Positions 26,938 to 63,664 of a DNA stretch of 64,000 nt are shown piece after piece (position 1 is the stretch's first letter; each line of letters begins with the position of its first letter). Location: positions 682,001 through 746,000 of the forward strand of contig NZ_CP108487.1 in the NCBI RefSeq assembly GCF_036226525.1, read 5' to 3'. A program made the translations under genes and the position numbers. This DNA comes from Kribbella sp. NBC_01245 (lineage in GTDB: Bacteria; Actinomycetota; Actinomycetes; Propionibacteriales; Kribbellaceae). Under the pieces are notes generated by a model, which worked only from the letters and a program-made list of their open reading frames with translations, was not told the origin of the DNA and made no database searches.

Positions 26938-27041
26938 CCCGCGCCCGCTGTCCCAGGCCGTGCGTCGTCCATCTGCGCGGCACGGAGTTTCGCGTTCTGC
27001 CAGACGTGATACCTGCGCGGTCATTGCGGCGTATTCGGTGG

Positions 27042-27180
27042 CACCCGTCCCCCTGAGTTCTTCCGAATTGTCAGGTGGACCCGGGCCGCGTCAAGGGCTT
27101 CATCACCTAACGGTGACGCTAACGCGCCCTTGACCCGACCCGGCTCCACCAAATGCAGCGGGCTATCAGGGGGACGGGTG
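27042..27180 (+). repeat. 139-bp structured end, copy 1
   Basis: Outer stem CACCCGTCCCCCTGA pairs perfectly with the last 15 bases. A second stem is GGTGGA with TCCACC, a third GTCAAGGGC with GCCCTTGAC, and a terminal hairpin CACC-TAAC-GGTG. An unpaired AGTTCTTCCGAATTGTCA is kept in all copies, apart from a small change in copy 2. Confidence 0.85.
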
Positions 27181-27204
27181 AGGTCTGCCCGTTTGCATCA
27201 CCTG

Positions 27205-27396
27205 GTGCCGTTCACGACTGGCCAGGTCATGCCGTTCACGAATGGCCGGGTCATGCCGTTCACGGATGGCCGGGTCATGCCGTTCGCGGATGGCCGGGTG
27301 ATGCCGTTCACGACTGGCCAGCTGATGGCATTCACGACTGGCCGACTGGTGCCGATCTCGGATGGCCGAGTGGTGCCGTACTCGGCCGGCGGGTTG
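27205..27396 (+). repeat. 24-bp tandem array, eight units
   Basis: Eight exact-length 24-base units, consensus ATGCCGTTCACGGATGGCCG followed by GGTC, starting at 27205, 27229, 27253 and so on. Units vary by a few bases. The period is a multiple of three, so one frame reads an octapeptide repeat (MPFTDGRV), but I do not regard it as coding. Confidence 0.85.
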
Positions 27397-27480
27397 TCGC
27401 GGAATGCTCTTGCCTGGCCGTGGTCAAGAGCCCGATCGCCGCGAGGCCGACGAATCGCGAGGGATAGCCACCGTGCGAGC

Positions 27481-27513
27481 GGGTTACCACCTCGGATTCC
27501 GAGGTGGTAACCC
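27481..27513. repeat. perfect palindrome, 15-bp stem
   Basis: GGGTTACCACCTCGG, ATT, then CCGAGGTGGTAACCC. A version with a shorter, imperfect stem is at 62781-62813 in element 2, and both are followed by ATGGCCAGCCAC. Confidence 0.85.
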
Positions 27514-27578
27514 ACCTCGCGAATGGCCAGCCACCCCCAACCCCCACTGCTCGCGCCGACGCCACCGGCCGTCGCCCT

Positions 27579-27664
27579 ATTCCGAGGGTCGACTCTCGGA
27601 ATGGGGGGTGGACTCGCCAAATTTGCCGGGTCGACTCCCTATTCCGAGAGTCGACCCTCGGAAT
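27579..27664. repeat. inverted pair of near-palindromes centred on GTCGAC
   Basis: A 24-base near-palindrome beginning ATTCCGAGGGTCGAC (27579-27602) and its exact reverse complement at 27641-27664, separated by 38 bp. Confidence 0.75.
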
Positions 27665-27770
27665 AGGGCGGGCGCTTGCCGCTGTGGAGCTGCGCTTCCC
27701 GATCTGAGGGGGTAACCGCCGAGGTGATGGCTTCACCCTCGAGATCGGAGGGGCTAACTCGGCATCTTGG

Positions 27771-27845
27771 GGGTTAACGTCTGAGATTCTGGGTTCCGGG
27801 CCGGTTATTTCGTACCGGAACCCAGCAGATCAAGGGATAACGGCC
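27771..27845. repeat. hairpin module X (TGGGTTCCGG type)
   Basis: CTGGGTTCCGG (27789-27799) pairs with CCGGAACCCAG (27815-27825), with longer imperfect arms outside. Element 2 carries this module at 62868-62940; alignment is better when that copy is reverse-complemented. Confidence 0.65.
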
Positions 27846-27891
27846 GACTTGCTGGCGGAAAACCACGGCGAGGGCCCGCGTGGCCGTCTTT

Positions 27892-28056
27892 GTGAGTCCA
27901 CTGGACGTTTCCGGGGCCGGGAAATGTCCAGCCTGCTCACTAGGACGACGATCAGACCTATTACCCGACGACTCGGCGCATCGACGGCTGCGGGTGCATC
28001 TTCCTGAGCGGACTGGACGTTTTTGCGGCCGGAAAACGTCCAGTCCGGTCGGGAAG
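27892..28056. repeat. module Y: 165 bp bounded by two GGACGTTT hairpins
   Basis: Left hairpin CTGGACGTTTCC...GGAAATGTCCAG (27901-27931) is framed by GTGAG and CTCAC. Right hairpin GGACTGGACGTTTT / AAAACGTCCAGTCC (28010-28046) is framed by CTTCC and GGGAAG. Element 2 has a module of the same length (62952-63116) in the opposite orientation. Confidence 0.75.
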
Positions 28057-28102
28057 ATGCCGCCCGGGCGCGGGATCACTCGGCAGGCGTGTTCGAGGAC
28101 GG

Positions 28103-28205
28103 ACTCGCCCGCCGTGCACGGCACCACCCCGCCATCCGTGCACGGGACCACTCGCGGTCCGTGGGCGGACCACTCGCCGTCGTGGATGGCACGACCCGGG
28201 CATCG
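28103..28205 (-). repeat. inverted tandem array, 22-24 bp units
   Basis: About four diverged units, seen on the minus strand as GATGGCGGGGTGGTGCCG and relatives. They match the 24-bp units of the left array (GATGGCCGAGTGGTGCCG), so the arrays face each other in inverted orientation, like the ends of the element. Confidence 0.65.
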
Positions 28206-28239
28206 GTGAGCGGGAGGCGTGATGCAAATGGGCAGACCT

Positions 28240-28378
28240 CACCCGTCCCCCTGATAGCCCGCTGCCTTTGGTGGACCCGGGACGGGTCAAGGGCGCGTCA
28301 GCGTCACCGTTAGGTGATGAAGCCCTTGACGCGGCCCGGGTCCACCTGACAATTCGGAAGAGTTCGGGGGGACGGGTG
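28240..28378 (-). repeat. 139-bp structured end, copy 2 (inverted)
   Basis: Reverse complement of copy 1 with scattered changes. The second stem is a perfect 12 bp here: GGTGGACCCGGG with CCCGGGTCCACC. The terminal hairpin CACC-TAAC-GGTG is kept. Confidence 0.85.
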
Positions 28379-28416
28379 CCACCAAAAGCCCCGGCCCAAA
28401 TACCGGGCAGGCGGCG

Positions 28417-28502
28417 GCGTTGATTCGTCCGAATCCGCCCGCCTACGTTGCCGTACATCTGACCGCCGCGGAAAGGGCGAGCGGATGCGGACGAATCAAC
28501 GC
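28417..28502. repeat. 86-bp palindrome right of element 1
   Basis: Arms GCGTTGATTCGTCCGAATCC and GGATGCGGACGAATCAACGC enclose a variable middle. The related sequence at 63577-63664 has TCTGAATCC and GGATGCAGA, a C-G to T-A paired change. The first in-frame ATG before the amidase lies inside this palindrome. Confidence 0.8.
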
Positions 28503-62460: not shown

Positions 62461-62481
62461 CGTCGCGGGGCTCTTGGTGGG

Positions 62482-62620
62482 CACCCGGCCCCCTGAGTTC
62501 TTCCGAATTGTCAGGCCGGTCCGGGCCGCGTCAAGGGCTTCATCACCTAACGGTGACGCTAACGCGCCCTTGACCCGACCCGAACCGGCCAAGGGCGGCT
62601 GGCTATCAGGGGGCCGGGTG
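62482..62620 (+). repeat. 139-bp structured end, copy 3
   Basis: As copy 1, but the outer stem is CACCCGGCCCCCTGA with TCAGGGGGCCGGGTG: T-A became G-C on both arms. The second stem is GGCCGGT with ACCGGCC, where element 1 has GGTGGA with TCCACC. Confidence 0.85.
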
Positions 62621-62639
62621 AGGTCTGACCGGTTGCCTC

Positions 62640-62775
62640 GCGCCGTCCCGTTCGCTGAGGTCTGCGCGTGCATAGGTCTTCGTATGTCGCAGAGGTCCCC
62701 TCGTGCATAGGTCCTCGGGTGCCGCATGGTCGTCGCACGCCGCCTAGGTCGTCGCTTGCGAGGGGGACCATTGCG
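62640..62775 (+). repeat. tandem array of 16-19 bp units
   Basis: Diverged units around GCATAGGTCCTCGGGTGCC and GCATGGTCGTCGCACGCC, in the position held by the 24-bp array in element 1 but unrelated in sequence. Confidence 0.5.
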
Positions 62776-62780
62776 AGAGT

Positions 62781-62813
62781 GGGTTACCACCTCGGATTCT
62801 GAGGTGGTCACCC
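62781..62813. repeat. GGGTTACC palindrome, element 2 copy
   Basis: GGGTTACCACCTC with GAGGTGGTCACCC. One base pair is broken compared with the perfect copy at 27481-27513; the right flank (ATGGCCAGCCAC) is shared. Confidence 0.75.
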
Positions 62814-62867
62814 TCCTCCGGCATGGCCAGCCACTGCCCGGGCGGCCCATTTGGCCCGAAATCGTGC

Positions 62868-62940
62868 GTTATCCCCTGAAGTCCTGGGTTCCGGTGCCAG
62901 ATAAGTGGCCCGGAATCCACAACTCGAGGGGATTACGCAC
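62868..62940. repeat. module X, element 2 copy (inverted)
   Basis: CTGGGTTCCGG (62884-62894) with CCGGAATCCAC (62910-62920). Its reverse complement aligns with 27771-27845 from the hairpin through GGGATAACG. Confidence 0.6.
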
Positions 62941-62951
62941 GAATTCGGGCG

Positions 62952-63116
62952 CTTCCTGAGTGGACTGGACGTTTTCCGGGCCGAAAAACGTCCAGTTCGG
63001 TGGGGAAGCTGCGAGTGCGGCCGTCGATTGGCGTCGGGTCGTCGGTTTTGGGGTGATCGTCGTCGTTGTGAGCGGGCCGGACGTTTTTCGGGCCGGAAAC
63101 GTCCAGTGGGCTCACA
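62952..63116. repeat. module Y, element 2 copy (inverted)
   Basis: 165 bp, same length as in element 1. The CTTCC/GGGGAAG hairpin is on the left and the GTGAG/CTCAC hairpin on the right. Read as the reverse complement it follows element 1 through the unique centre (GACGACGATCA, ATCGACGG). Confidence 0.75.
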
Positions 63117-63137
63117 AAGCTGGGTCGGCGGGCCGCC

Positions 63138-63292
63138 ACGCAGCCACAACGTGAGAGTGAAGCGCTTCAACCCGGCGGAAGCTGGACTTGTGGCTGCGTA
63201 GCGGTCCGCGGCGGACGTGCACCCCCACGCGAGGCACCGAAAAGGCCCGTTTCTGCAGAAAACTGGCCGTCGTGTGGTCGTGCACGTCCGCC
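63138..63292. repeat. two nested palindromes specific to element 2
   Basis: ACGCAGCCACAA (63138-63149) pairs with TTGTGGCTGCGT (63188-63199), and its loop contains GAAGCGCTTC. GGCGGACGTGCAC (63210-63222) pairs with GTGCACGTCCGCC (63280-63292), and its loop contains GTTTCTGCAGAAAAC. Confidence 0.7.
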
Positions 63293-63378
63293 CAATCCGA
63301 CGCGCCAATCCGACGCGCCAACTCGACGCGGCAGCGCCCGGCCCCACACTCGACGCGGCAGCGCCCGGCACTGCCAAA
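63293..63378. repeat. tandem array, 13-bp and 21-bp units
   Basis: CCAATCCGACGCG units followed by two copies of CTCGACGCGGCAGCGCCCGG plus C, placed just before the inverted end as the tandem array is in element 1. Confidence 0.6.
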
Positions 63379-63391
63379 CCCGGTCAGACTC

Positions 63392-63530
63392 CACCCGTCC
63401 CCCTGATAGCCCGCTGCCTTTGGCCGGTTCGGGTCGGGTCAAGGGCGCGTCAGCGTCGGCGCTAGCCGATGAAGCCCTTGACGCGGCCCGGACCGGCCTG
63501 ACAATTCGGAAGAACTCAGGGGGACGGGTG
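63392..63530 (-). repeat. 139-bp structured end, copy 4 (inverted)
   Basis: Inverted relative of copy 3. The terminal hairpin is CGGC-TAGC-GCCG where the other three copies have CACC-TAAC-GGTG, a three-base change on both sides that keeps pairing. Confidence 0.85.
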
Positions 63531-63576
63531 CCCACCAAAGACCCCGGCCCGAAGGCTGATGCCGGGCAGGCCTTTA

Positions 63577-63664
63577 GCGTTGATTCGTCTGAATCCGCCC
63601 GCCCACGCTGCTGGCCAATCGACCCGCCGCGGGAAGGGGCGAGCGGATGCAGACGAATCAACGC
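63577..63664. repeat. 88-bp palindrome right of element 2
   Basis: Same kind as 28417-28502: GCGTTGATTCGTCTGAATCC with GGATGCAGACGAATCAACGC, lying about 35-45 bp outside the right 139-bp end in both elements. Confidence 0.8.

Follow-up and report, generated by a model that had tools for sequence, protein, structure and literature searches.

Eukaryotic foldback elements carry long inverted ends with tandem arrays, placed around a centre that is either non-coding or occupied. In bacteria, several described systems resemble parts of the locus reported here. The BrickBuilt MITE of Porphyromonas gingivalis, of which there are about 20 copies, has small inverted ends that enclose a 23-nt tandem array and, like the family described below, it is species-restricted, intergenic and non-coding (PMC4596501). 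REP, BIME and REPIN sequences are likewise repeated extragenic palindromes that occur in inverted pairs and receive specific IS insertions (PMC1525189, PMC3116915). IS30 elements insert into nearly palindromic hot spots and duplicate 2 bp of their target (PMC9333248). Last, some integrative and mobilizable elements reside at tRNA genes (PMC5704250).

The window considered here is the whole stretch that was analysed, 64,000 nucleotides at positions 682001-746000 of the single-contig, 8.68-Mb genome of Kribbella sp. NBC_01245. It contains two elements which span approximately 27027-28502 (element 1) and 62466-63664 (element 2) when their outer hairpin is counted in. The inverted arms of element 1 (27027-27201 and 28219-28393) are 175 nt long and 93% complementary, those of element 2 (62466-62632 and 63380-63546) are 167 nt long and 90% complementary, and in both elements each arm contains a self-complementary 139-nt core, which we call END. 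A further hairpin, HP, lies directly outside the right END. The features of the two elements are the following.

Element 1:
27042-27180, + strand: left END hairpin (139-nt folded core; from the fold and the covariance model)
27206-27379, + strand: tandem array inside the left END, 24-nt unit, 7.2 copies
27481-27513, no strand: module m1, palindrome GGGTTACCACCTCGGATTCCGAGGTGGTAACCC, with an IS30-family element at its centre in 10 sister elements
27573-27670, no strand: module m2, double palindrome, also standalone at at least 12 other places
27696-27765, + strand: module m3
27767-27880, + strand: module m4, hairpin CTGGGTTCCGG..CCGGAACCCAG
27886-27945, + strand: module m5, hairpin
27991-28066, + strand: module m6, hairpin
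28106-28185, - strand: short arrays inside the right END, an inverted and diverged relative of the left array
28240-28378, - strand: right END hairpin
28417-28502, + strand: outer hairpin HP, at a fixed spacing from END

Element 2:
62482-62620, + strand: left END hairpin
62652-62721, + strand: degenerate array inside the left END
62781-62813, no strand: m1 palindrome
62859-62922, - strand: module m4, inverted
62952-63012, + strand: module m6
63068-63119, - strand: module m5, inverted
63128-63209, + strand: hairpin module n1
63210-63292, + strand: hairpin module n2
63292-63369, + strand: arrays inside the right END
63392-63530, - strand: right END hairpin
63577-63664, + strand: outer hairpin HP

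The original prediction, made from the sequence of the window, had described two elements with long, folded, inverted ends, an interior made of separate hairpins and, immediately within the ends, tandem arrays whose sequence is not the same in the two elements. All of this is borne out. Folded as DNA, the END cores have z scores of -5.9 to -6.7 (0 of 200 shuffled sequences were equally stable), and the interior hairpins also depart from their shuffled counterparts (z of -12.6 for m2, -9.9 for m6 and -5.8 for m1). The left array of element 1 consists of 7.2 copies of a 24-nt unit, the arrays of element 2 have other periods. Beyond the inverted ends, at which the limits of the elements had been placed, both elements also have the hairpin HP. 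The modules were also said to be in the same order in the two elements, and this does not hold: the order is m1 m2 m3 m4 m5 m6, all in the + orientation, in element 1, and m1+ m4- m6+ m5- n1 n2 in element 2, so that the modules common to both are not collinear. No open frame across elements 1 and 2 gives a Pfam match over the cut-off and none is a plausible gene, in agreement with the claim that the elements carry no transposase or other gene; this claim is true of the two copies in the window, but many of their sister copies hold IS elements.

Nor are these elements a pair. A covariance model built from 44 ends finds 65 ENDs above 80 bits in the chromosome, at a total of about 41 loci. Both ENDs exceed this threshold in 24 complete pairs, and all 24 are arranged left (+) to right (-); for the remaining 17 ENDs the partner is truncated or none was found. 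The ENDs of a pair are 0.7-1.5 kb apart unless an IS has inserted, and the elements together make up about 0.5% of the genome. Of the 53 ENDs examined, 23 have an HP at a constant spacing; in a given element, HP may flank the left side, the right side or both. The general anatomy of the family is thus (HP)-END-array-[shuffled palindromes]-array-END-(HP). The ends could have turned out to be unpaired single copies, or the interior to encode a conserved protein; with 24 inverted pairs and no conserved protein in the interior, neither is the case, and a non-autonomous repeat family resembling a mobile element, as had been suggested, is the best reading.

We give a probability of about 0.62 to the following explanation: the elements form a species-specific, non-autonomous, foldback or MITE-like family, 0.7-1.5 kb long without inserts, whose ends derive from a hairpin of tRNA-site islands and which now serves as a landing pad for IS elements. 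The element works like a MITE or a foldback element: it has terminal inverted repeats, no coding capacity and many copies. On the other hand, no target-site duplication is consistent among the 22 pairs considered, although the outer boundary is uncertain and a variable duplication could be missed. Since the duplication is not found and the transposases examined include no autonomous partner, we do not claim membership of a named family. The movement of the elements is something we infer: no duplication is consistent, none of the transposases examined shares the END, and 17 ENDs have no full partner. The genes that flank elements 1 and 2 were found in a search of 38 genomes, but in the relatives they are not syntenic within 1.5 kb, so that no empty site could be shown.

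The original prediction remarked that no known MITE has this layout, which is largely correct, yet BrickBuilt is a bacterial MITE whose interior does hold a tandem array. Unlike BrickBuilt, the present family has ends that are covarying hairpins of 150 nt, supplemented by an outer hairpin, its arrays are at both ends, and separate palindromes fill its interior. It differs from the eukaryotic foldback elements in that it is bacterial, that each end is one self-complementary hairpin, and that no shared transposase is evident. A literature search for palindromic repeats in Kribbella gave nothing relevant.

The END hairpin is conserved as a structure. When covariation is scored on a hand-named structure over the alignment of 44 ends, 95.9% of the cells are paired, a share that falls to 30-51% if the partner is shifted by 1-3 columns. 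Changes on both sides of a pair are seen in 97 cells, against 36.6 +/- 4.9 in shuffled alignments, a figure to which the inheritance of a few haplotypes contributes (the tool itself cautions about related sequences). Only 17 cells show a one-side (wobble) change or fewer. This strict Watson-Crick covariation fits selection at the level of DNA, or templated correction, better than it fits RNA. It weakens the proposal that the locus is transcribed and that its hairpins act as RNA, which we consider very improbable: a secondary structure with compensatory changes and a long non-coding unit kept across the genus are what one would expect of a structured RNA, but wobble intermediates are few, the palindromes are nearly symmetric on both strands, the modules occur freely in either orientation, and many copies have an IS in their middle. 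In addition, Rfam gives no match above the gathering score for the element, and in the relatives discussed below only tRNAs matched.

The stem and loop alleles of END occur in different combinations, and the identity between the ENDs of one element is 86.6%, against 84.8% between elements (p=0.027). Because the alleles are mixed and the likeness within an element is only slightly higher, the END copies have probably exchanged sequence.

Such exchange bears on the possibility that the family consists of static host repeats, that is, palindromes for chromosome structure, termination or supercoiling which have spread by gene conversion or duplication only. The shuffling of alleles between copies favors it, as does the location of the elements, which lie between unrelated genes wherever genes are callable. 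The fact that END is missing from a stretch of 1.96 Mb (G000:C1 4665207-6625423, about 4.67-6.63 Mb; simulated p of about 0.0017) and the presence of standalone m2 copies between genes point the same way. However, none of 37 other genomes of the genus has an END of the focal type, the interior is freely inverted, and the elements are heavily broken by IS with no evident harm. There is no fixed orientation of the flanking genes either (++ in 4 cases, -- in 4, convergent in 5, divergent in 2, the rest unresolved). All in all, we find this explanation rather unlikely.

Fourteen IS copies belonging to two families are found, in this genome, only within the elements. The first is an IS30-family element of 1611 bp (transposase NF033563, 295 bits), which is present in exactly 10 copies that are 100% identical over the 601 bases compared. 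All 10 are inside elements, where they split palindrome m1 at its centre in either orientation; the IS has inverted ends and 9 of the 10 copies are flanked by a 3-bp duplication, features by which it belongs to the IS30 family. A near-palindromic target is usual for IS30, but the duplication is of 3 bp instead of 2 bp, and here every genomic copy sits in one repeat family (PMC9333248). The second is an IS110-family element, also assigned by the features of its family, of 1504 bp (DEDD transposase NF033542, 162 bits), whose 4 copies, identical over 601 bases, are all inside END. All four use one fixed target, GGCAGCTATCAG^/TTAGGGGG. The IS110 family is now known to be RNA-guided. Besides these, one more END is interrupted by an IS1380-family copy, with CTGAG duplicated, and members of the IS3 and IS4 families are present in two others. 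We also observed a single IS30 copy (L054) whose flanks are mismatched (ATT/AAT), which suggests a recombination between elements through the IS30 copy.

Since the elements represent only about 0.5% of the genome, the exclusive residence of the IS30 and IS110 copies in them is not due to chance. Insertion of IS into REPs is known (PMC1525189); two IS families that are exclusive to one repeat family are the unusual part. These IS are recent guests and not founders of the family, since their copies are identical to one another and those of END diverge by about 15%; the ends of the IS found inside the elements are also unlike END. The residence of 10 of its 10 copies might suggest that the IS30-family element is the driver, and the elements its vehicles or by-products, but the inverted repeats of this IS bear no relation to END and most elements have no IS30. 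Its copies are 100% identical over 601 bases, against a difference of about 15% among ENDs, and they sit at m1, 9 of the 10 being flanked by 3-bp duplications, as a recent guest would; we reject this explanation. The suggestion that the locus is a recombination platform finds partial and unexpected support, since the elements are the only, base-exact targets of the IS30- and IS110-family elements and the relatives of END sit in tRNA-site integrative islands.

Regarding the enzyme that may have moved the family, a REP or REPIN-type population mobilized by a Y1 transposase (RAYT/TnpA-REP) would also have its hairpins in inverted pairs and be targeted by IS as REPs are (PMC1525189), and m2 resembles a two-hairpin unit. 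However, the END, of about 150 nt, is far larger than the 20-40 bp of REPs (PMC3733652), and the focal unit is not made of two short inverted REPs, since its ENDs are 0.7-1.5 kb apart and its interior is composite. No RAYT is seen: the genome contains a single weak Y1_Tnp fragment, and there is no END, HP or m2 within the 1.4 kb read beside it. A Y1 transposase linked to the repeat was thus not found, the mobilization by RAYT is largely refuted, and we consider it extremely unlikely.

The preferred explanation, a foldback or MITE-like family with ends from a tRNA-island hairpin, relies on the relatives of END in the genus. A BLAST search with END gives nothing in 36 genomes of the same genus and 22 of the same order. 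In a genome collection from which focal or near-focal records may be left out, the exact END pattern has 4 isolated matches in unrelated taxa, which we judge to be due to chance. A covariance model based on the focal ENDs only has weak matches elsewhere in the genus, the best at 7e-11, and in these the sequence agrees as well: the boxes CCGTCCCCCTGATAGC, GGGTCAAG-G, CTTGACGCG, ACAAT and CAGGGGGACGGG are common to the focal END and its relatives, in the same order. A joint model has matches in 32 of the 38 genomes of the genus (31 besides the focal one), 1-28 in each relative genome with any match and 74 in the focal genome. In the relatives, the diverged hairpin is embedded in a unit of about 320-450 nt that is non-coding and conserved. 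We found no DNA match in plasmids and phages to this unit, nor in plasmids to element 1.

A tRNA gene is nearby at 15 of the 34 diverged-hairpin loci examined, 33 of which are in other genomes. In 14 of these 15 cases the tRNA gene is downstream, on the opposite strand, at 0.4-5.4 kb, and its 3' end points towards the hairpin. At 10 of these loci, a 34-45-bp copy of the 3' end of the tRNA is found upstream (mostly at 0.6-1.9 kb), as expected for the attachment sites of an integrated island, and a phage-integrase remnant (PF00589) was detected in the tRNA island of one relative. By its sequence, END is akin to the hairpin unit of small tRNA-site islands in sister species. The relatives' islands resemble known tRNA-site integrative or mobilizable elements in being bounded by tRNA 3' ends, some with phage-integrase remnants; the focal elements differ from these in having two inverted ENDs and in not being located at tRNA genes (PMC5704250). 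Indeed, no tRNA gene that could supply 3'-end duplications was found at the 16 focal loci scanned, and no integrase gene was found in the focal elements.

The islands of the relatives deserve a comment of their own. Six of them (L090, L091, L176, L188, L192 and L194) are small, have copies of the tRNA 3' end at their borders, and contain one or two possible cargo genes and the hairpin unit, which is sometimes in tandem. L090 and L091 have more than one hairpin unit and several tRNA 3'-end copies each, and look like tandem insertions. It may be that such compact tRNA-site islands are an undescribed class.

The following mechanism would account for the foldback or MITE-like family. END would once have been a cis-acting site of a tRNA-site island, recognised, either double-stranded or as a folded single strand, by the recombination or replication enzyme of the island. 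An inverted pair of ENDs, with the filler DNA between them, may then have been amplified in this species by an enzyme acting in trans, and later shuffled through recombination between copies. At present the elements would be neutral landing pads which absorb IS away from genes, and the family would persist since IS and recombination within the elements are harmless. We are far more doubtful about a precise version of this origin, in which END is a folded-DNA recombination site for a tyrosine recombinase of tiny, genus-wide tRNA-site islands, and escaped, was doubled in inverted orientation and founded the transposon-like family here. By analogy, such a site would be attC-like in principle, with no relation in sequence, its islands consisting of one or two cargo genes and the hairpin unit, sometimes in tandem; we regard the analogy, like the version it belongs to, as distinctly unlikely.

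The family joins three things that are usually apart, namely islands at tRNA sites, palindromic repeats between genes and their targeting by IS. A hairpin of tRNA islands that is present across the genus appears to have founded, in one species, an amplified non-coding repeat family, in which two IS elements then settled exclusively. This offers a tangible example of the way such repeat families may arise, and a possible cause of their tolerance, in that IS aimed at repeats miss genes. For one IS110 and one IS30 element, moreover, it yields natural targets that are known to the exact base.

Last, we note that parts of the family also occur on their own. Hairpins of the diverged, relative type are present in the focal genome at three places (G000:C1 3195553, 3842683 and 3843998; L093 and L094), two of which lie in a 1.3-kb direct duplication. 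HP is standalone in a few places, and at one locus (L139, 813-1044) two HP copies stand back to back and no END separates them; this could be a decayed form of the element or a minimal one. Module m2, which consists of two palindromes around a palindromic spacer and whose hairpins show compensatory changes, has at least 12 intergenic copies outside the elements (L157-L168), and m2 copies are present inside the 1.96-Mb stretch that is free of END. Three of the standalone copies (L160, L163 and L165) share some flanking sequence and are therefore part of a larger repeat.
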